A stretch of 35,775 nt of DNA, from the IMG/VR virus record IMGVR_UViG_3300042554_000913, positions 1 through 35,775 of that record; one strand, written 5' to 3'. This document shows positions 180-35,775 of the stretch, one piece after another (the first letter of the stretch is position 1; each line of letters starts with the position of its first letter). The position numbers were made by a program, and so were the translations under genes. The notes beneath the pieces were generated by a model, which did not search any database, was not told the DNA's origin, and saw nothing but the letters and a program-made list of their open reading frames with translations. Origin of the DNA: a virus.

Positions 180-275
180 GATCGAAGCCTTCTGCCCCTG
201 TGGGGCCGTTGAGTAGTGAATCCTGCACGGTGCAGGCCAGCCAGCCCTCGCGAGGGCTGGCGTGGCGCGCATCGG
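180..275 (-). promoter_or_regulatory. Repeated intergenic regulatory unit, copy A
   Basis: In transcription order it holds a 22-bp perfect palindrome at 261-240 (GC-rich hairpin), the 15-bp palindrome CCTGCACCGTGCAGG at 236-222, a small GCCCC/GGGGC hairpin and the Shine-Dalgarno AGAAGG before the ATG at 179. Closely related units lie at 35329-35424, 34815-34911 and 34159-34253. The arrangement suggests combined transcriptional (operator) and RNA-level control of each early gene. Confidence 0.7.
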
Positions 276-482: not shown

Positions 483-537
483 GTCTAAGCCTTCTGCCCA
501 CTTGGGGCGGTTGAGTGTGATCCTCCACAGCGGAGGA
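483..537 (-). promoter_or_regulatory. Divergent copy of the early regulatory unit (leader of first gene)
   Basis: Contains the Shine-Dalgarno AGAAGG, a degenerate GCCCCAAGTGGGC hairpin, and at 521-537 an inverted repeat TCCTCC/GGAGGA placed where the other units carry CCTGCACCGTGCAGG. Order and spacing match copies A-D, so I treat it as a diverged copy with a different operator half-site. Confidence 0.5.
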
Positions 538-543
538 GAAACA

Positions 544-565
544 GGCGCGGCCCTTTGGCCGCGCC
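544..565 (-). terminator. Hairpin terminator or attenuator after the structured RNA
   Basis: On the minus strand a perfect 9-bp stem GGCGCGGCC/GGCCGCGCC encloses the loop AAAG and is followed by TGTTTCTCC. The U-run is short, so it may only partly terminate. It sits 22 nt after the 3' arm of the RNA closing helix, so it could end a free RNA or act as an attenuator before the early genes. Confidence 0.55.
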
Positions 566-587
566 CGAATGTCGTGCGCTGTGCTGT

Positions 588-1012
588 GTCGGTTCTTTGT
601 AACGCGGTCGCATCGCGTCTCGTTGTATGTACCAGTGCGCCTGTCGGAAGTTTCGTCTCCTCACATCCGTCCGGCGCTTGCGCGCGCTCCATCACTCGGC
701 AGCCGCCGCGCGCTGCGTTTACTCAACAGCGCATGAGTGATCCGGGACGATGATGCTTTGGAGCATCGTTCGTTCGCACTGGGTTGTCGGCAGCGGTGTC
801 GCTCTCATCGTTCGCTTCACCTTAGCACGCTGCAGGTCGGACTCGTATGGTCTGTCGCTTGTGGCCCCCCATACGCTCGATCTTGCCCTACTGCGGTCCT
901 ATCGGGTTGCGCGGCCCTCTCGGGGCGCGTCTTTCGCAGTCCTGCGCGAGGTTGCCCGCTCGGGGCTTGCTCGCTTGCGTCTCGCTTGCTGCCTAGATGT
1001 CAAAGAACCGAC
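588..1012 (-). ncRNA. Candidate large structured non-coding RNA (about 425 nt)
   Basis: No plausible protein is encoded here on either strand. The ends form a perfect 12-bp helix: GTCGGTTCTTTG at 1012-1001 pairs with CAAAGAACCGAC at 599-588. Further perfect stems inside: CGTATGG/CCATACG (875-869 with 850-844), GATGCT/AGCATC with a 4-nt loop (767-752), ATCACTC/GAGTGAT (741-735 with 697-691) enclosing GCGCTG/CAGCGC (732-727 with 715-710), and ACGCG/CGCGT (618-602). The predicted start from the upstream extended -10 is at about 1012, the first base of the closing helix, and a hairpin terminator follows. I see no RNase P, tmRNA or 6S core motifs. It could be a large ornate phage RNA of the GOLLD/ROOL kind, or a cis-acting antitermination leader like HK022 put. 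It heads the early operon. Confidence 0.6.
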
Positions 1013-1018
1013 TTGCAA

Positions 1019-1027
1019 AGTATAGCA
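1019..1027 (-). promoter_or_regulatory. Extended -10 promoter for the structured RNA and early operon
   Basis: The minus strand reads TGCTATACT at 1027-1019, an extended -10 element (TGN plus a near-consensus TATAAT box). No good -35 hexamer lies 16-18 bp upstream, as is common for extended -10 promoters. Transcription would begin near 1012. It sits in the only long gap between the last late gene (stop at 1080) and the first early gene, so it is the natural main early promoter. Confidence 0.6.
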
Positions 1028-9973: not shown

Positions 9974-10384
9974 TTACGAAGCCGGAGCGGTCACGCTGAC
10001 TGCGCCGCTGATGCGGATGGTGTAGGTCACGGTCACCGCCTGATCCACCGCCGCTTCAATGGACGTGGACTGCAGGTAGCCCGTGAACGTCACCGAAGGT
10101 CCAGCGAGGCCTGCACCCGTGGGACCGAACCGGATCACAAAGTTGCTTGGCGTGCTGTCGCCGCTGGTCGGCAGGTCGAATGCCTCCGTGCGCTCCATGT
10201 TGCAGGTGACCTCGACGGTGCCCGGGTCGCTGGTGCCGAGGACATAGGTCTTGCCCGTGTCGATGAGGCTAGTGACATCAATCTCGGTAGCGGCAATGCC
10301 GCTGAAAGAGATGCCAGTGATGAGGCCCGTGACTTCGGTATTGCCAGTAGTGAACGCCGAACCGTATGCGCTGAATGCTGCCAT
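9974..10384 (-). CDS. Tail tube protein paralogue 2
   Basis: 136 residues with a strong Shine-Dalgarno (AAGGAG, 6 nt before ATG). It shares long blocks with the gene upstream: GISFSGIAATEIDVTSL, GTVEV, LPTSG and a C-terminal YLQSTSIE block followed by VTYT. This layout (beta strands, GT.D.GTVEV core) fits the lambda gpV-like tail tube family. Of the two copies it is the more compact, with a shorter N-terminus. One copy probably builds the tube and the other may form a minor, terminal or decoration ring; which is which cannot be told from sequence. Confidence 0.75.
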   Translation of the reverse strand: MAAFSAYGSAFTTGNTEVTGLITGISFSGIAATEIDVTSLIDTGKTYVLGTSDPGTVEVTCNMERTEAFDLPTSGDSTPSNFVIRFGPTGAGLAGPSVTFTGYLQSTSIEAAVDQAVTVTYTIRISGAVSVTAPAS

Positions 10385-10402: not shown

Positions 10403-10843
10403 TTAAGGCTGAACCGTTGAGGGTAGAACTGTGATCGTCCCGGTCAACCGGAACGTGTACGTGACCATGACTGCGTTGTCCACCGAGCCTTCAATGCTCG
10501 TGGACTGCAAGTAGCAGGAACCAGTGACTTGGATGTACTGGCTGTTCGGCGTGATGTTGTCACCGAGCGTGCAATAGAACGCACCCGGCGTGCTGTTACC
10601 ACTCGTGGGCAACAGCGGTGCAGTCGTGCGGTTTACGAAGGCAGACACCTCGACTGTTCCGTTGTCGCGCGTGCCCATCACGAAGGTCTTGCCAGCGCTG
10701 GTGAGGCTCGTGACATCAATCTCGGTCGCGGCAATGCCGCTGAACGAGATGCCGCGCGCCAACGGGATCTCGGCGTAGGCGGTTAGCGGGGGAGGCGTTG
10801 GCGAGTAACCGAAGGCGCTATACAGAGATGAGAAGGCTGGCAT
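10403..10843 (-). CDS. Tail tube protein paralogue 1
   Basis: 146 residues, upstream partner of a tandem duplication. Shares GISFSGIAATEIDVTSL, GTVEV, LPTSGNSTPG and YLQSTSIEGSVDNAV with paralogue 2, but has a longer N-terminus with SPTPPP. It lies between the tail completion protein and the G/GT chaperones, the standard place of the major tail (tube) protein. Ribosome site AGGATGA before ATG. Tandem tube paralogues are known in some siphophages, where both enter the tail. Assignment rests on position and on the duplicated beta-rich pattern. Confidence 0.75.
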   Translation of the reverse strand: MPAFSSLYSAFGYSPTPPPLTAYAEIPLARGISFSGIAATEIDVTSLTSAGKTFVMGTRDNGTVEVSAFVNRTTAPLLPTSGNSTPGAFYCTLGDNITPNSQYIQVTGSCYLQSTSIEGSVDNAVMVTYTFRLTGTITVLPSTVQP

Positions 10844-14249: not shown

Positions 14250-15193
14250 GTAGCGATTGCCTTGATTGAGATTCCTGCCGCGTGAGAGATTCCTCCAAGG
14301 AATGCCTCGGCGCGGACTGATGCGTGAATGATCGACTGATTGGTTGCCGCCAGCGATTCCGAGTCTACGCGGAACTGCATCGGCTGCATGGCCAGCGACA
14401 CATAGCGCGGATCGAAGATGATGACATGCGGTTGCGTGATCAGCGCGCTGACCGCCGTTTGCGGCATGCTGCTGATGAAGTGCCACGGCAAGCCAGCGAA
14501 GTGACATTGACCGCGTTCGGTTCGGAAGTCCTGAAGGTCAGCCGGATACGACGCCTGGAACCCGCCGCCAGCGACCATCTCACCGAACACGTTGGCGTTG
14601 CTGCAGATCACCAGACCTTCGTAGTCAGCGTTGCTGAACATCTGACCAGCAGGCTGTCCGCCAGCAGCAGTCCCGCGTCCGAAGATGACGCGAGTGAGCA
14701 GCGGACCCGTCAAGACACCGCTAACCACGGTGCCACGTTCGTGACGATCGGTGCCACCGATGGCGATGCCGATGCGTTCCGCGATGTAGTTGTTCAACCT
14801 CTCCGCGAGTTGCCCGGCCATCACTTGCGCCAGCAGCGACTGGATGCCGTAGTCCGCCATCAGTTCGTTGGACACCTTCGTGGCTACGATGAAGGTCTGC
14901 AAGGTCGCGCGCGTTTCCGCGAAGGTGTAGTCGGTGAGGAAGGTGTACTCCGAGCCTTCGCCCGGCACTTCCACATCGGCCAGCGCGCTGACATCGCGGC
15001 AGCGATACGCCGACGCTGCGCTGACCTTGTTGACCAGCGGCAGCAAGCCAGTAGCGAATGTGCGCGAGTAGACCGCTTCGCTGAAGGTCTCGCTGACGGA
15101 TTGGTTGCCTCCAACGCCGGACGGGATCGACTCCGTAGTGAGGCCCTCTCCGCCGCCGCGCGTTGCCAAGATGTAGTCCTGTTCGGTGGTCAT
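14246..15193 (-). CDS. Second HK97-fold capsid protein, without scaffold region
   Basis: 315 residues, between protease and the canonical capsid gene. It begins almost directly with the N-arm-like region (SVSETFSEAVYSRTFATGLL), then ATKVSNELMADYGIQSLLA and a long spine helix with QVMAGQLAERLNNYIAERIG, closely parallel to the block with KASNELIAD in the neighbouring capsid protein. It lacks the long helical delta domain. It may be the main shell protein with its neighbour as minor subunit, a vertex protein like T4 gp24, or one of two co-assembling shell proteins. Ribosome site GGAG seven bases upstream. Confidence 0.8.
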   Translation of the reverse strand: MTTEQDYILATRGGGEGLTTESIPSGVGGNQSVSETFSEAVYSRTFATGLLPLVNKVSAASAYRCRDVSALADVEVPGEGSEYTFLTDYTFAETRATLQTFIVATKVSNELMADYGIQSLLAQVMAGQLAERLNNYIAERIGIAIGGTDRHERGTVVSGVLTGPLLTRVIFGRGTAAGGQPAGQMFSNADYEGLVICSNANVFGEMVAGGGFQASYPADLQDFRTERGQCHFAGLPWHFISSMPQTAVSALITQPHVIIFDPRYVSLAMQPMQFRVDSESLAATNQSIIHASVRAEAFLGGISHAAGISIKAIAT

Positions 15194-21352: not shown

Positions 21353-22404
21353 GCAACCACCTCTTGAAGGAAGCCCTTGATGCTGGAATCGTACTGCTGA
21401 CTCACGATAGCAGGCATAGGCTTTGGTTGATTCATGTTTGCTGCAAGGCGGCTTTGGCCTAGCAGATCATCTTCGCCGTACAGCCAGTCCGAAGGCGACA
21501 ATCCGGCGCGCTGCAAGTGGTTGCGGTAAGACAGTCGGTTTGGTGCGATGACTGGTACACCTAAGGCGACGGCTTCCAAGAAACTGTAGCCAAAGGTCTC
21601 TTGGTCTGCTCCTGACCATACCGCTCCGACGGTGGCCAACCAGTTGTAGTAGTTCGCCTTACTAGCGTGCTGGACGATCTCGATCCCGGATTCTTTACAC
21701 GCTGCTGCCATAGTGTTTGATACTTGTCCGTTAGTGCTAACAGCAAAGGTCCAACCGCTGCTCTTCATTTCGCGCGCCAAACGCATGAACTCCCAAGGAC
21801 GCTTCTCGTCTGCCCATCTATGGTTGAATGCAACGATGCGACGGCGTTCCTTGTGACCGTGCTGTGCTACCTCGGCGTGATCCCACGGCTGTCCGGCGGC
21901 AACGCCTTTGCCTTTCAAGGTAACATTGCGCGACACAAACTCGCGATGGTGGTCGCTCCCAAACGCGACTGCGTCAAAGATGCCTTCGAGCAGCATGACT
22001 TCAAAGCGGCGTCCCCATACACCTAACGATCTTGTCAGGTAGTCATGCGGATCGAAGCAGCCAGCGTGGTGCCAGCCTGCGAACCTCACCTGAAGACCAA
22101 GAAGATCGCACTGGCACTTCACAGTTTCAATGCCCGGAAACCATACATCTCCTACAAGGATGATGTCGCCACTGCTAACTGCGCCGGCACCAATGTCCTT
22201 CGTCAACTGCAAGAGTTGTTCAGTCTTCCACGCTGCTGTTCCGACTGTATCTAGCCATTGGCCGTGCTTGATGACTCCCGTAGATGTGTTGCCGCTAACG
22301 CGACGCCATGCAAGGTTGGTGCTTGCCAACGCTTGGCACACCCAGCGATCAACTTGCTCGGTGTACCGCTCGTGTAACGGCTCTAATGGCAGCCAATGGA
22401 TCAC
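21349..22404 (-). CDS. GT-B glycosyltransferase resembling tRNA-queuosine mannosyltransferase
   Basis: 351 residues from GTG 22404 (GTGA overlap with the gene before). The N-terminal half starts with HWLPLEPLHERYTEQV and includes HHAGCFDPHDYL. The C-terminal half has VAFNHRWADEKRPWEF (about 192-207) and TFGYSFLEAVALGVPVIAPN continuing RLSY (270-293). The FNHRW and NRLSY signatures are those I associate with the GTDC1/DUF3524 family, which mannosylates queuosine in tRNA, and the second motif is the nucleotide-sugar site of GT4-like enzymes. Lying between DpdA and QueD, it probably sugars a 7-deazaguanine base in phage DNA; the sugar and acceptor are unknown. The family link is by motif memory, not by search. 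Confidence 0.75.
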   Translation of the reverse strand: MIHWLPLEPLHERYTEQVDRWVCQALASTNLAWRRVSGNTSTGVIKHGQWLDTVGTAAWKTEQLLQLTKDIGAGAVSSGDIILVGDVWFPGIETVKCQCDLLGLQVRFAGWHHAGCFDPHDYLTRSLGVWGRRFEVMLLEGIFDAVAFGSDHHREFVSRNVTLKGKGVAAGQPWDHAEVAQHGHKERRRIVAFNHRWADEKRPWEFMRLAREMKSSGWTFAVSTNGQVSNTMAAACKESGIEIVQHASKANYYNWLATVGAVWSGADQETFGYSFLEAVALGVPVIAPNRLSYRNHLQRAGLSPSDWLYGEDDLLGQSRLAANMNQPKPMPAIVSQQYDSSIKGFLQEVVA

Positions 22405-28944: not shown

Positions 28945-29040
28945 CTGCGTCCTTTCAGTTGAGTTGCGTTGCCCTGCACGGTGCAGGCTTCCGGGCATGA
29001 GGAACGCCCTCATGCCCGGTAGCGCGTACCGTCATCCACT
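28945..29040 (-). promoter_or_regulatory. Regulatory gap before the helicase: hairpin and shared 15-bp palindrome
   Basis: In transcription order, a perfect 12-bp stem CCGGGCATGAGG/CCTCATGCCCGG with a 5-nt loop (29019-28991) is followed by the palindrome CCTGCACCGTGCAGG (28987-28973) and the Shine-Dalgarno AAAGGA. The palindrome is identical to those before the far early genes at 222, 34199, 34857 and 35368, so one DNA-binding protein probably controls both blocks. Confidence 0.7.
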
Positions 29041-31900: not shown

Positions 31901-31937
31901 CCCGTAAGTATTGCCAAACGGCACGAAGCCCGCAACC

Positions 31938-31974
31938 TGCCAACGGTTGGCAAGCGCCTTGCCAACCGTTGGCA
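31938..31974 (-). promoter_or_regulatory. Tandem 15-bp palindromic operators
   Basis: TGCCAACGGTTGGCA (31938-31952) and TGCCAACCGTTGGCA (31960-31974), each a perfect 7-bp inverted repeat about one base; centres are 22 bp apart, two helical turns, so a dimer pair could bind one face. They lie just upstream of the HTH gene. A third perfect copy is in the primase gene at 26520-26534, and weaker relatives sit near other gene starts. Confidence 0.65.
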
Positions 31975-32006
31975 ACTTGACATCGCGCTACACTGGCCTC
32001 GCGCGT

Positions 32007-32051: not shown

Positions 32052-32972
32052 TCAGTTGCTACTGATGAACGGCTGACCTTCTGAGTTGTGACGCGGTGGG
32101 CAGACGCCGGGCAACGCGGCGTAGGCGTCGAACACGGTCGCCATGCGCGCGTGCCGCTTCAGCGTCGGCTCAAGGGCCGGGCTGCGCTTGTCAACCTCGG
32201 TGATGGCCTGCTCCAGCCTGAACATGGTTGGCCGGGACCACGCGCCATCCTCGTCGTCCAGTTCAGGGCGACCGAGAACGCCACCGGGCAGGTCAGCCCG
32301 GCGGAACTCGTGCAGGATGTGCGGGACCGCCGTGGCCGTGACGGCCCGGTACTCGATCAGGTCGAGCATGAGCCGAGCCAGCAGCGCGTCTTCCGGCAGG
32401 TTGCGCTCGCGCTCGCGCGCCTGCAGGTCGAAGGCGCGCCACCGCTGCTCGCGGTCACGCATCGCGCCGATCGCTTCGTGCATGCGCCCGATGCGGTCCA
32501 TGACGATGCCGGGCAGGTCGCGGATGATGTTTGCCGTGTGTTTACGGGCGAACGCGAACGCCTGCGAGTCGCCCCCGAAGGCGAGGTTGTCGCACACGAA
32601 CGCTTGCTTGCCGATGATCCCGCCAGCCACTACCGACTTGTCATCCGAGTTGCGGAGTCCGAGGACCCACTGGCCGGAACGCGCTTCACCGAGCGCCTGC
32701 GTTCCGCCTTGACCCGGCGGGCTCTGCAGCCCAATCAGTCCGAAGTACTGCGCGCCGCCACGGGCAAGCGCGTGCGCTTGCTCCGTTACGGTGTAGCCGC
32801 AGGTCGCCAGCGCGTCCAACGTCATGTCGACGAGGCGTGCGTGCGGGATCGGGCAGTGACTGCCCGTGCGCTCCGGCGTCTTCACCGCCACGACATCGTT
32901 CCAAGTCGCTGCCTGCGCTCCGCAGTGCAGCACGAGTCGGCCTGCGCCGACCTTGCTCTCAATCCAAGCCAT
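32052..32972 (-). CDS. DUF932 phage/plasmid-like protein
   Basis: 306 residues. The blocks VWxVKTPER-like NDVVAVKTPERTGSHCPIPH, YFGLIGLQSPPG, VLGLRNSDDKSVVAGGIIGK and AFVCDNLAFGGDSQAFAFAR follow the DUF932 pattern found in phages and plasmids, usually with recombination or anti-defence genes. Biochemical role not established to my knowledge. ATG 32972 has AAAGGAG nine bases upstream. The gap before it contains two small hairpins. Confidence 0.8.
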   Translation of the reverse strand: MAWIESKVGAGRLVLHCGAQAATWNDVVAVKTPERTGSHCPIPHARLVDMTLDALATCGYTVTEQAHALARGGAQYFGLIGLQSPPGQGGTQALGEARSGQWVLGLRNSDDKSVVAGGIIGKQAFVCDNLAFGGDSQAFAFARKHTANIIRDLPGIVMDRIGRMHEAIGAMRDREQRWRAFDLQARERERNLPEDALLARLMLDLIEYRAVTATAVPHILHEFRRADLPGGVLGRPELDDEDGAWSRPTMFRLEQAITEVDKRSPALEPTLKRHARMATVFDAYAALPGVCPPRHNSEGQPFISSN

Positions 32973-33036
32973 CTGGTGGCTCCTTTCAATGTGCGCCGCA
33001 GTCGTTGCGGCCCCGTCCATCCGACTGAATGGAGAT

Positions 33037-33060
33037 GGGCGCACCATCGCTGGTGCGCCC
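33037..33060 (-). terminator. GNRA-capped hairpin between early genes
   Basis: Perfect 10-bp stem GGGCGCACCA/TGGTGCGCCC with the tetraloop GCGA on the minus strand, eight bases after the stop at 33069. No U-run. Same class of U-less GC hairpin seen after the capsid gene and in the regulatory units. Confidence 0.55.
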
Positions 33061-33068
33061 CGGTCCCG

Positions 33069-33362
33069 TCAGTCAAGGAACTTGTCAACGAGGAACTGCT
33101 CCGCCAGTTCGTCCGCTGGCTCACGATGGAATGGCGGCGGCTGCCATCCCATGGACTGTGCGATAGCAATGACGCTCTTGCCGCTCAACAGCGACTCAAG
33201 CAACGACAGGCGCACCAGCCGCCTCTCGACTCCAGCGAGGTGGCGCGCGTGACCCGCGTGCCCTTCCGCCACCTTGGCATGAATGCGCTCGCGCTTCTTG
33301 CCTTCGATGCGTCTCTGTTGCGCCACGACCTGCATTGCCAATTCAAACGTCAACTCGTTCAT
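33069..33362 (-). CDS. Early helical protein, 97 residues
   Basis: ATG at 33362 overlaps the upstream stop as ATGA. Highly basic first half (MNELTFELAMQVVAQQRRIE, KKRERIHAKVAEGHAGH), then RLSLLESLLSGKSVIAIAQS MGW, which could be an HTH-like segment. Ends acidic. A DNA-binding role is possible from the basic, helical composition. No family recognised. Confidence 0.7.
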   Translation of the reverse strand: MNELTFELAMQVVAQQRRIEGKKRERIHAKVAEGHAGHARHLAGVERRLVRLSLLESLLSGKSVIAIAQSMGWQPPPFHREPADELAEQFLVDKFLD

Positions 33363-33589
33363 GCCGCACCCCCTTGACCGTTGAGATATCTGAAGCACTG
33401 CACGCAGCACATCGGCTTGGACCACACGCCACGGCCCGGCGCGGCATCGCCTTCCCAGCGATACTGGAACCGTGCGGGCCGTGCGCAGTAGTCGCACTGC
33501 TTCTGGTCCGCCACCGTGCGTGCGCGCGGCAGCGTGCGCCGCACGAGCGTGGCGCGCGCGAACGGATCGCGTGAGAGTGCCTTGTTCAT
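33359..33589 (-). CDS. Small zinc-finger-like protein, 76 residues
   Basis: ATG at 33589 overlaps the upstream stop as ATGA. An Arg-rich N-terminus is followed by KQCDYCARPARFQYRW and, 20 residues on, KPMCCVQCFRYL: two CxxC pairs as in a zinc ribbon. This is a frequent layout in phage early proteins with nucleic-acid or protein binding roles. Exact function unknown. Confidence 0.72.
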   Translation of the reverse strand: MNKALSRDPFARATLVRRTLPRARTVADQKQCDYCARPARFQYRWEGDAAPGRGVWSKPMCCVQCFRYLNGQGGAA

Positions 33590-34158
33590 GCTGCCTCCAA
33601 TCGGAATCCGAGCGGCGCGTCCGGTTCCGGCTGAACGCGCCACAGCGTCAGAGGCAACTGCGTGCCGACGGTGTCGCCGGGCTTCCGCCTGACTTCGATG
33701 ACCTCGCACGCCTGCGCCGGGTCCACGAGCACGGTTGGCTCGCACATGATCTCGCACAGCACCTTGAACAGCGGCCCTTCGGCCATGCCTTCGATGCTGT
33801 GGCGCGCGATGGTGATGCCGCACGCGGCCAGCCAGTCCACGGCCCATTGGCACGGGCCTCCGTTGGCGTGCGACCACTCGCACGGCGCGCCCGCTTCCGC
33901 GCCAACCGCTACGGCGAGTGCTCGCCGCGCTGGCTGGCCAACTTCCTCCACGACTGCCATCGGCGCGATGCGCGGCGCGTGGCTCATGTCGTACTCGATA
34001 GCAGCGGCCATCCGCGCCTGCCCTTCGGGCACGCCGCGCCGCATGTGCGCAGCGACCATGTTGTCGATCCACGGCGCGCGCTTGGGGTCCAAGCGCGTCC
34101 GGGCTTCAGCGGCGACCTCTGCCATACGCATGACTTGGGATGAACTGAAACAGACCAT
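33586..34158 (-). CDS. Early protein of unknown function, 190 residues
   Basis: ATG at 34158 follows AAGGAG at 6 nt inside a repeated regulatory unit, so the start is certain. The N-terminal 70 residues are helical (QVMRMAEVAAEARTRLDPKR, GQARMAAAIEYDMSHAP). The middle has a Trp/Cys cluster (APCEWSHANGGPCQWAVDWL) and the C-terminal part is beta-like with VIEVRRKPGDTVGTQLPLTL. No known domain. First gene of a run of three overlapping genes down to 33069. Confidence 0.78.
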   Translation of the reverse strand: MVCFSSSQVMRMAEVAAEARTRLDPKRAPWIDNMVAAHMRRGVPEGQARMAAAIEYDMSHAPRIAPMAVVEEVGQPARRALAVAVGAEAGAPCEWSHANGGPCQWAVDWLAACGITIARHSIEGMAEGPLFKVLCEIMCEPTVLVDPAQACEVIEVRRKPGDTVGTQLPLTLWRVQPEPDAPLGFRLEAA

Positions 34159-34253
34159 TCAAGGCTCCTTGCCCCTATGGGGCGTTAGGTGATGTGATCC
34201 TGCACGGTGCAGGCCAGCCAGCCCCCGAAGGGGCTGGCGTGGCGCGCGTCGTG
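34159..34253 (-). promoter_or_regulatory. Repeated intergenic regulatory unit, copy D
   Basis: Stem GCCAGCCCC/GGGGCTGGC with loop TTCG on the minus strand (34238-34217), palindrome CCTGCACCGTGCAGG (34213-34199), hairpin GCCCC-ATA-GGGGC, and AAGGAG six bases before ATG 34158. The upper stem differs from copies A-C by paired changes, which supports a conserved RNA hairpin. Confidence 0.72.
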
Positions 34254-34814
34254 TCAAGCCGACTGCTGCTGCTGCTGCGCGGACAACTGACGCACGATCT
34301 CGGCAGCAAGCCGGCGGTAGTCGATCTCGTTCGTGATGGCCGGGATGTCCAGCGCCTCCGCGATGTCCTTGGCGTTCAAGTGACCCGCCACCTCTTCCGT
34401 GTCGATGTGCCGCGCGGCATACTCACCGATCGTTTCCTCGCACATCTCTGCCGCGATGTCCTTGGCGTAGAACTTGCCAGCCAGTTCGTCCGCGATGTCA
34501 CTGACATCGAACTGGTCAACGAGGTCAGCGACATCTACATACTGCGCCACATCTTCTGCCGAGATGCTGACCATGTCCTTCACATCGTCGCGGATCAGGT
34601 CCGCCGCGGCTTCTGCCACGGCCTCCGCGTCCACGAACTGCGCAACCTGCGTTGCGAACTCAACGCTGCCCATGCGCAGCGCGACCTGTTCTTCGATGGC
34701 ATCCGTGCTGACTTGCTGCGGTCGCGCAGCGATGTCGTTGCACAGCGCAGAGAAGGCGTTGGCGATGGCGGAGAACTGCGTGGCGAGCGAGAGAAGGCGT
34801 TCTGACTGATTCAT
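34254..34814 (-). CDS. Acidic early protein with repeated short helices, 186 residues
   Basis: ATG at 34814 lies 8 nt after AAGGAG; TTG at 34820 is too close. The protein is very acidic and built of short alternating segments such as AEDVAQYVDVADLVDQFDV, DIADELAGKF and DIAAEMCEETIGEYA, AKDIAEALDIP. The repeated D-[IV]-A pattern suggests a solenoid of small helices. It ends with Gln repeats (AQQQQQ). Could be a DNA mimic that blocks host DNA-binding proteins, judged on charge only. No family recognised. Confidence 0.75.
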   Translation of the reverse strand: MNQSERLLSLATQFSAIANAFSALCNDIAARPQQVSTDAIEEQVALRMGSVEFATQVAQFVDAEAVAEAAADLIRDDVKDMVSISAEDVAQYVDVADLVDQFDVSDIADELAGKFYAKDIAAEMCEETIGEYAARHIDTEEVAGHLNAKDIAEALDIPAITNEIDYRRLAAEIVRQLSAQQQQQSA

Positions 34815-34911
34815 GTTCAAGGCTCCTTGCCCCTACGGGGCGTTAGGTAAGTGACTCCTGCACGGTGCAGGCCAGCCAGCCTCCGCAGAGGCTGGCGTGG
34901 CGCGCGTCGTG
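34815..34911 (-). promoter_or_regulatory. Repeated intergenic regulatory unit, copy C
   Basis: Stem GCCAGCCTC/GAGGCTGGC with loop TGCG on the minus strand (34896-34875), palindrome CCTGCACCGTGCAGG (34871-34857), hairpin GCCCC-GTA-GGGGC, and AAGGAG before ATG 34814. CTC/GAG replaces CCC/GGG of copy D, a compensatory change. Confidence 0.72.
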
Positions 34912-35328
34912 TCACTCGTAGATGTCAGCGAGCGCAGCGATGTCGTTCAACTGGTACGGCACGCCGGGCAGGCGTTGCCCAAGCGCCGCGCGCAGCTGAT
35001 TCTGATGGCGGCTCGTTGTCACGCTGTGCTTCTGCTTCGGCACGATCCAGACCAGTCGCTTGCCTGCATGGTTGTGAGCGTTGAACCATGCGCGGTAGCC
35101 GATGGGCGTTGCGTAACTCAGCACCGCAGCATCAACCTCAAGGCCGATGCTGGCCTTCGCCTCATTCAGCAGCCGCACGAGTTGCGCGTCTGCCCTGCCT
35201 TGCACCTGAACGGTTCCGCCAGCACGGCTCGGCTGCAGTTGCAGGCTTGCGGCCTGCACCGGAGGCAGCGCGCAGCGATAGAAGTGGCCGCTGACGATGT
35301 TGAAGAACTGCTTGACGGTCATACGCAT
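34912..35328 (-). CDS. Early protein of unknown function, 138 residues
   Basis: ATG at 35328 follows AAGGAG; a second ATG lies two codons later. Opens MRMTVKQFFNIVSGHFYRC, then a Gln/Ala-rich stretch, and a conserved-looking C-terminal half with SYATPIGYRAWF, VWIVPKQKHSVTTSRHQNQL and LPGVPYQLNDIAAL. The ATPIxYR and SVTTSRHQ blocks recur, as I recall, in small phage proteins of unknown role. Soluble, no membrane segment. Confidence 0.75.
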   Translation of the reverse strand: MRMTVKQFFNIVSGHFYRCALPPVQAASLQLQPSRAGGTVQVQGRADAQLVRLLNEAKASIGLEVDAAVLSYATPIGYRAWFNAHNHAGKRLVWIVPKQKHSVTTSRHQNQLRAALGQRLPGVPYQLNDIAALADIYE

Positions 35329-35424
35329 GACAAGGCTCCTTGCCCCTGTGGGGCGGTTGAGTGTGGTCCTGCACGGTGCAGGCCAGCCAGCCCTCGCGAG
35401 GGCTGGCGTGGCGCGCGTCGTCTC
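35329..35424 (-). promoter_or_regulatory. Repeated intergenic regulatory unit, copy B
   Basis: A 22-bp perfect palindrome (35407-35386, identical to copy A), palindrome CCTGCACCGTGCAGG (35382-35368), hairpin GCCCC-ACA-GGGGC and AAGGAG before ATG 35328. Confidence 0.72.
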
Positions 35425-35775
35425 TCAGTAGCCGCTGGCGATGCGGCGCGTCACCTTCTGCGCAACGACGTCCATCGTGCGGCGCATGAACTGGCTGCGA
35501 GTGTGCTTCACAGCGTTCGTCTGCAGGCCCGCATGGTCACGCAGCATGTCCGTGGACGGCACGCTGCCCCACGGAATGGTGACACCGATCTCCTTGAGGA
35601 AGGCGAGGCGCCAATGCCATTCCTTCGCGTTCTCGGCGGTCAACTCGGACAGGTCCACCAGCATGGTGGTCCAGATCAGCGCGTGCATGTTCTCGGTGAG
35701 CAGGCGCTCACCAGCAGCGAGGTTCTGCTCCTTGCGCTCGGCCTCGGTAGCCGGGCGAGTGACGAAAGCGTGGTC
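35425..35775 (-). CDS. Small early protein, C-terminal part (continues at 24-179)
   Basis: Residues 11-126 of the protein whose N-terminus is at 150-179. After the shared repeat region it reads MLVDLSELTAENAKEWHWRL, then IPWGSVPSTDMLRDHAG and a basic end (RSQFMRRTMDVVAQKVTRRI). Helical and charged, without known motif. Stop at 35425 is followed by regulatory unit B. The internal ATG at 35688 is not a separate start. Confidence 0.8.
   Translation of the reverse strand, partial: DHAFVTRPATEAERKEQNLAAGERLLTENMHALIWTTMLVDLSELTAENAKEWHWRLAFLKEIGVTIPWGSVPSTDMLRDHAGLQTNAVKHTRSQFMRRTMDVVAQKVTRRIASGY
35650..35775. repeat. Direct terminal repeat, right copy (126 bp)
   Basis: Identical to 24-149. Here it is preceded by the true continuation of the split gene, which shows that the left-end bases 1-23 are foreign to this position. 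Confidence 0.85.

Follow-up and report, generated by a model that had tools for sequence, protein, structure and literature searches.

Comparative analysis identifies, in the gaps between the early genes of the window (the whole 35,775-nt stretch of viral DNA that was analysed), a family of RNA structures encoded on the transcribed strand. Each is predicted to contain two or three hairpins, the fold is conserved far beyond the sequence, and it is present in unrelated phages. The family and its structure are established by the comparisons below; the mechanism that we infer, a form of RNA punctuation between cistrons, has in our estimate a little under an even chance of being correct.

The window contains four units of about 96 nt each (95–97 nt). 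Direct reading confirmed their positions and the order of their elements as given in an earlier note on this DNA, which had also called the intervening genes unrelated; the genes flanking the units have no evident relation to one another. Each main unit occupies the entire gap between the stop codon of one minus-strand early gene and the Shine–Dalgarno (SD) sequence and start codon of the next. Beyond these, a diverged unit, a partial unit and a weaker one lie likewise between minus-strand early genes. The sites are listed here, with E values from R1, the covariance model for window-type modules:

34159–34253, minus strand: intercistronic RNA module; hairpin 1 at 34217–34238 (UUCG loop), hairpin 2 at 34199–34213, hairpin 3 at 34171–34183, then AAGGAG and ATG; fold z −3.9; R1 E 5.8e-20 (in the training set)
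34815–34911, minus strand: intercistronic RNA module; hairpin 1 at 34875–34896 (UGCG loop), hairpin 2 at 34857–34871, hairpin 3 at 34829–34841; fold z −3.8
35329–35424, minus strand: intercistronic RNA module; hairpin 1 at 35386–35407, hairpin 2 at 35368–35382, hairpin 3 at 35342–35354; fold z −3.4
180–275, minus strand: intercistronic RNA module; hairpin 1 at 240–261, hairpin 2 at 222–236, hairpin 3 at 194–206; fold z −3.0
484–575, minus strand: opening module of the early operon, ahead of its first gene; hairpin 1 at 544–565 followed by TTTCT, hairpin 2 at 522–536 (CCTCC-GCTGT-GGAGG), hairpin 3 at 496–508; fold z −2.8
28948–29031, minus strand: partial module before the helicase gene; hairpin 1 at 28991–29019, hairpin 2 at 28973–28987, without hairpin 3; R1 E 0.007
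32973–33068, minus strand: three-hairpin gap before the gene ending at 32052; hairpin 1 at 33037–33060, hairpin 2-like element at 33016–33033, hairpin 3 at 32995–33011; assigned on structure only, fold z −4.0

On the gene strand, the main units are composed of the stop codon, a short strand with GCCAC at its end, hairpin 1, TGG, hairpin 2, a linker, hairpin 3, the SD sequence and the start codon. Hairpin 1 has the form GCCAGCC nn / nn GGCTGGC with a UUCG, UGCG or CGCG loop, and a CCA/TGG pairing extends the stem beneath a bulged C. Its upper stem occurs in three versions in the window that differ by paired substitution, as had been noted. Hairpin 2 is the 15-bp palindrome CCTGCACCGTGCAGG (CCTGC-ACCGT-GCAGG) and is followed by an unpaired, A/C-rich linker of ~15 nt. 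Hairpin 3 (GCCCC-nnn-GGGGC) precedes AAGGAG or AGAAGG and then ATG. The general plan is a hairpin 1 whose tetraloop is of the UNCG or GNRA type, read on the gene strand, and a hairpin 2 whose loop is mostly RC(Y)GU. The folding energies of the window gaps lie 2.8–4.0 SD below those of dinucleotide shuffles (3.0–3.9 SD for the four main units), and a 5-bp stem with an RYYGT loop occurs eight times on the minus strand, against 0.8 expected for both strands from mononucleotide shuffles.

The module before the first gene had been described as a diverged stretch at 483–537. It is present there, but once extended to 575, where hairpin 1 is found, it is a full unit and not just a diverged stretch. 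Its plan is that of the main units (GGCGCGGCC/GGCCGCGCC, CCTCC-GCTGT-GGAGG, GCCC/GGGC), it is matched by R1 with an E value of 9.7e-5 from outside the training set, and the same form is found in a relative (L185, 9932–10008). The partial unit reported before the helicase gene was likewise recovered, with a different, 12-bp hairpin 1 followed by the same palindrome as in the main units. This module is kept in two relatives (L185, 16784–16865; L187, 954–1029), and hairpin 1 of L185 has changed yet is still paired. The gap at 32973–33068, absent from the earlier list, is a weaker member of the set, because its second loop differs and R1 gives no match to it at E 0.05.

The earlier proposal that RNA pairing is selected is strongly supported by an alignment of 19 window-type modules, in which 99.1% of 447 cells are paired. 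Eight pairs hold 47 cells changed on both sides, compared with 16.7 in shuffles (none of 500 reached 47) and at most 8 in slid controls. Hairpin 2 alone is 100% paired in 27 sequences, with a covariation score of 0.160 versus 0.024, arm complementarity having itself been a selection criterion. Among 11 modules of a second type, from the relatives G006–G009, 90.8% of cells are paired, double changes occur at all 11 pairs of hairpin 2, and the whole structure has 40 such cells versus 13.2. In all three comparisons, the number of doubly changed cells was beyond the reach of 500 shuffles and of the slid controls. The shuffles ignore relatedness, so these values are not probabilities; the slid controls and the tetraloop strand comparison answer part of this concern.

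UNCG and GNRA tetraloops stabilise RNA, and they are found on the transcribed strand alone. Read on the gene strand, 67 hairpin 1 tetraloops include 32 UNCG, 11 CNCG and 10 GNRA loops, and the opposite strand of the same 67 hairpins has no UNCG and no GNRA. The element therefore most likely acts as a transcript.

Two covariance models connect the divergent versions of the module. R1 matched modules of G006–G009 from outside its training set (E 2e-4 to 0.035), and R2, built on GNRA types from G006, G007 and G009, matched modules of G004, G005 and G011 (E 7e-4 to 0.046) as well as G008; these E values are rough, coming from short calibrations. Across 879 kb, strong matches to R1 and R2 were located in early regions on the gene strand, with weak mirror matches where these palindromic units are read on the other strand. 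Matches of both models to divergent versions outside their training sets place these versions in one family.

The wider unit set was gathered from IMG/VR by exact scans with a long pattern and a 15-mer, by two degenerate patterns and through TerL relatives, and contains 82 units in about 30 contigs. A hairpin scanner also gives chance hairpins in coding DNA, and of its matches only those in gaps with a start codon and SD sequence were used. An upstream stop codon is present in 75 of the 82 units (TGA in 74 of these), most often 14–16 nt before hairpin 1. Hairpin 2 is mostly 15–29 nt from the SD sequence, and the linker is 41% C, 33% A, 18% T and 8% G (A+C 74%). The arms of hairpin 2 occur as CCTGC/GCAGG, CCAGC/GCTGG, CCCGG/CCGGG and CCTCC/GGAGG, and as CCTAC/GTAGG in L003, all still paired. 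The loop in this set is ACCGT, ACTGT, GCTGT or ATCGT, a constancy that is partly by construction, since the search required a loop of this form; the further relatives of G006–G009 type were found without that condition. Some loops are not of the RC(Y)GU form, among them that of G011 (AACTTC) and that of the first unit in both G004 and G005 (CGCG). With arms that vary by compensation around a conserved loop, hairpin 2 appears to be an RNA hairpin rather than a DNA operator.

Comparison with related phages, as the earlier note had advised, revealed that most relatives keep the pattern; G010, G012 and G016 are the exceptions. The reading thus withstands the refuting condition named in that note, disappearance of the pattern from close relatives, these exceptions aside. 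Whole records of relatives whose TerL is 68–73% identical to that of the window phage revealed the same plan in units that are hardly or not at all alike in sequence. In G009, hairpin 1 is capped by GAAA or GGAA, hairpin 2 is CCACGCATC-GCGTT-GATGTGTGG or a covarying version of it, the linker is CTTTCATTTCACTAC and hairpin 3 is GCCGC-nnn-GCGGC; the modules of G006–G008 resemble these, with a GCGT loop in hairpin 2. Such gene starts in G010 carry their own promoter, hairpins and SD sequence instead, so the unit and a dedicated promoter look like alternative routes to gene independence. G012 and G016, which are near-identical, keep the early genes with neither units nor promoters, indicating that the module is non-essential to this phage type. 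In the record IMGVR_UViG_3300044971_000892 (L181/L182), the gene starts at 21593, 22788, 23229 and 25103 on the plus strand and at 15026 and 16168 on the minus strand each have a TTGCnn-N16/17-TAnnnT promoter. Most copies contain a CCCCCG..CGGGGG palindrome in the spacer, which looks like a repeated operator–promoter, and two hairpins and an SD sequence follow.

The same units, including the GCCAGCC type, are found in a podovirus-like group (G001–G003 and G014), where most early-array genes have a unit of their own. The 14 window-phage proteins tested all lack a match in this group, and its portal is of the SU10/P22-like type (weak matches). The units of this group are without hairpin 3, nearly every one has a different stem within a single genome, and a boxA-like leader is again present. 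In a third set (L033, L051 and L061), the hairpin 2 sequence follows another hairpin 1. A search for the host found no close isolate. A phage of the podovirus-like group also encodes a 3080-residue polyvalent protein (L198, 4108–13350) with an ART-PolyVal (ADP-ribosyltransferase) domain.

One unit type can be found between different upstream and downstream genes, and one gene after several unit types, which argues that genes are exchanged around the units, those of the podovirus-like group included.

A consensus scan found no sigma-70 promoter in 32900–35775 and none in the units, and no intrinsic terminator (GC hairpin with U-tract) was found in 32900–35775; near the array, only hairpin 1 of the first unit (542–567), with its TTTCT tail, resembles a terminator. 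Upstream of the first unit are the following elements:

1019–1024, minus strand: −10-like hexamer TATACT of the presumed early promoter, assigned from its sequence and its position relative to boxA and missed by a strict sigma-70 scan
998–1009, minus strand: boxA-like element GGTTCTTTGACA, close to where the early leader begins; conserved behind a −10-like hexamer in those unit-bearing phages that were inspected

In these phages, (T)TCTTTGACA occurs within about 30 nt after the −10-like hexamer. TCTTTGACA is one base off the core of the gamma-proteobacterial boxA consensus GYTCTTTAANA (PMC5725501), and is a putative boxA by sequence. The first unit comes within about 70 nt in the podovirus-like group and after about 450 nt of leader in the window family. 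In the window, the 420–450 nt between the boxA-like element and the first gene (575–998, minus strand) are apparently non-coding and could hold a structured or stable RNA; pieces of this leader (such as GGCACGGC..AAGAAGCAAG) are common to the relatives G007–G009. Upstream of the first unit in L002–L006, L013, L043, L049 and L113, an early promoter TTGAC(A/C/T)-N16-TACTGT has a spacer with repeated TGCAGTAC-like motifs, possibly a repressor site.

We suggest, with not quite an even chance of being right, that the units are RNA punctuation modules that end one cistron and present the next to ribosomes within one early transcript, and that hairpin 2 docks an RNA-binding factor. They would act in cis within a presumed polycistronic early transcript, with transcription of the array relying on the single early promoter and boxA leader. 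Hairpin 1, a few nucleotides past the stop codon, would close and shield the 3′ side of the upstream cistron. Hairpin 2 and the A/C-rich linker, together with hairpin 3 in the window family, would keep the next ribosome-binding site open independently of neighbouring sequence, so that each cassette could be translated by itself whatever gene adjoins it. The module thus probably makes each gene separately read and swappable. We prefer punctuation and insulation because the module spans the region from stop codon to SD sequence, includes a G-poor unpaired standby stretch, varies freely in its stems, gives way to promoters in G010 and is found at the joints of gene exchange. The conserved hairpin 2 loop is left unexplained by protection and insulation alone, and it suggests a binding factor, for which the RC(Y)GU loop with its freely varying stem would be the docking site. 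As unrelated phages share hairpin 2, this factor is more likely to be a host protein than a phage protein. Counted against punctuation are the early genes without units in G012 and G016, the lack of hairpin 3 in the podovirus-like group and the loops that depart from RC(Y)GU.

The units could instead act on elongating RNA polymerase, in the manner of put RNA or of nut (boxA and boxB), hairpin 2 being a boxB-like 5-bp stem and pentaloop bound by an antiterminator or a host Nus-type factor that renews a boxA-started resistant complex at each gene. This is unlikely, although several features fit it. The early promoter of the unit-bearing phages inspected has a boxA-like element after it, and hairpin 2 has the size of boxB with a conserved loop on a variable stem. 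The HK022 put RNA is also ~70 nt long with two stem-loops and needs no phage protein (PMC9378689), and the units have in common with put and lambda-type nut sites that stem-loops adjoin each other in early phage RNA and that the leader includes a boxA-like element (PMC9378689). However, put and nut occur once per operon, downstream of the early promoter and close to it, whereas the units begin at the previous stop codon and precede almost every early gene. Antitermination also leaves the linker to the SD sequence and hairpin 3 without a role. G006–G009 retain boxA, yet their hairpin 2 has a stem of 8–11 bp and a loop of 4–5 nt, and no N-like protein was identified.

Endonuclease processing is a quite improbable explanation. 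Its model is the early precursor RNA of phage T7, from which RNase III, acting at five sites, makes the mature mono- and dicistronic mRNAs (PMC4858673). Like the T7 sites, the units are structured RNA placed between early cistrons of a polycistronic phage transcript (PMC4858673), co-transcription being presumed for the units. A cut would leave hairpin 1 at the new 3′ end and hairpin 2 at the new 5′ end, and in the window and podovirus-like types the upstream strand can lengthen hairpin 1 to about 20 pairs with internal loops. RNase III needs a duplex of roughly two helical turns. Such a duplex is possible in the long form of window-type units and is not predicted in G006–G009; hairpin 1 of G006–G009 and G011 has about 12–14 pairs, and their modules are predicted to fold mainly into short hairpins that stand apart and fall below this length. 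The T7 site is one long irregular duplex, in contrast to the short separate hairpins of most relatives. Cutting would also leave the conserved loop of hairpin 2 unexplained.

The long form itself raises the idea of a two-state RNA switch. Units of the window and podovirus-like types can adopt an alternative fold, in which the strand that follows the stop codon pairs with the palindrome and hairpin 2 is excluded. This strand would either break hairpin 2 by pairing or lie under the ribosome ending the upstream gene, so that hairpin 2 forms only when that gene is translated. The upstream strand pairs with palindrome positions 1, 3–5 and 8–9 in 90% of cells; position 8 gives G:C in 39 cases and A:T in 8 (C to T where the partner goes from G to A), and an A at position 3 always meets a T (7/7). 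For most units the minimum-energy prediction is the long form, and the stop codon lies at the edge of the upstream strand. Against these observations, a swap control reached only P = 0.02 with 14 non-redundant units, a slid control (+2) still gave 73.5% paired with a covariation of 0.131, and the strand is absent from the G006–G009 units and from the first unit of the window. Support for the alternative fold is moderate, and the fold could either serve as a switch that responds to the ribosome as it terminates or simply follow from the resemblance between strand and palindrome; we consider the switch very unlikely as the function of the units.

That the units work as DNA, as an operator palindrome, homology island or recombination site for cassette exchange, is highly improbable: gene cassettes are shuffled at the units, but arms that vary freely with compensation (CCTGC, CCAGC, CCCGG, CCTCC, CCTAC) around a conserved loop are the reverse of an operator and do not bear out the earlier suggestion of a protein-binding DNA site, half-sites and integron attC motifs are not conserved, UNCG and GNRA loops are found on one strand only, and stems that differ in nearly every podovirus-like unit leave little homology for exchange inside a genome. 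Cassette shuffling may be a consequence of modularity.

Three specific DNA elements were also considered and rejected. The RYYYAAC/GTTRRRY core boxes of integron attC sites are not in every copy; by eye, ACTCAAC or ACCTAAC can be seen in window units and is absent from most podovirus-like units. An N4-type DNA hairpin promoter was raised by the template-strand C(CGNA)G, where forming a GNA triloop would put the lower stem out of register; the 3080-residue protein matches the ADP-ribosyltransferase domain and no polymerase family. A ParB or centromere site, prompted by a ParB-like neighbouring gene, is disfavoured by arms that are not conserved.

The nearest idea found in limited literature searches is the start-associated sequence (SAS) of cluster K mycobacteriophages; the searches also gave the T7 RNase III sites, HK022 put and the psaA motif. 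The SAS consists of 13 conserved nucleotides where the gene starts, to which the ESAS adds an imperfect 17-bp inverted repeat that differs between subclusters (PMC3203893). The likeness drawn in the earlier note extends to the idea and not to the sequence (PMC3203893). Both kinds of element are repeated in one orientation just upstream of unrelated phage gene starts. The units share no GGGATAGGAGCCC-like sequence at the gene start, where AAGGAG, AGAAGG or CACATGGAGA is present instead, and, unlike SAS and ESAS, they span the whole gap from the stop codon, contain two or three hairpins with UNCG or GNRA loops and are common to unrelated phages. The cyanobacterial psaA RNA motif, a potential 5′ UTR, also consists of three hairpins, often with UNCG loops (PMC2864571), but it has a single, cellular location upstream of psaAB, with no phage or intercistronic link.

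No Rfam model came near its gathering score in the window, none matched at the units and none matched in 12 unit-bearing loci. DNA similarity searches of INPHARED and PLSDB returned chance fragments only, at the sensitivity used, and a scan of GTDB genomes gave eight matches in unrelated phyla, consistent with chance by the expected number. The units are a well-supported phage RNA fold in several phage groups, absent from Rfam and unmatched in the searches made of phage, plasmid and GTDB genomes. A broader and more doubtful reading is that they represent a form of RNA punctuation that had not been described before, recognised by a host factor and adopted by unrelated phages of the same hosts, in which early genes would be swappable like cassettes and some phages would keep their stems different within a genome to avoid recombination, with the fold and the hairpin 2 loop held constant. 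The unit-bearing phages include several unrelated freshwater phages, and a standard RNA junction is a possible answer to how fast-changing arrays of small early genes stay expressible after swaps. Should a host protein read hairpin 2, it would become a target of phage takeover that can be identified. Should the unit insulate translation, polycistronic design would have a ready-made natural insulator.

Other features of the window were also recorded. The contig has a 126-nt end repeat (24–149 = 35650–35775) and is read as circular; it opens (1–71) with a 34-nt inverted copy of the following sequence, a fold-back that is an assembly or amplification artefact. A near-perfect 22-nt inverted repeat (CTTGCCAACCGTTGGCA; 31933–31979) lies at a small HTH gene before a RecE-like gene, and a similar repeat precedes the corresponding gene in G007 and G008. 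In the structural region, the adjoining genes at 9974–10384 and 10403–10843 look like tandem paralogues, sharing a 107-nt stretch that is 81% identical at a spacing of 438 nt.
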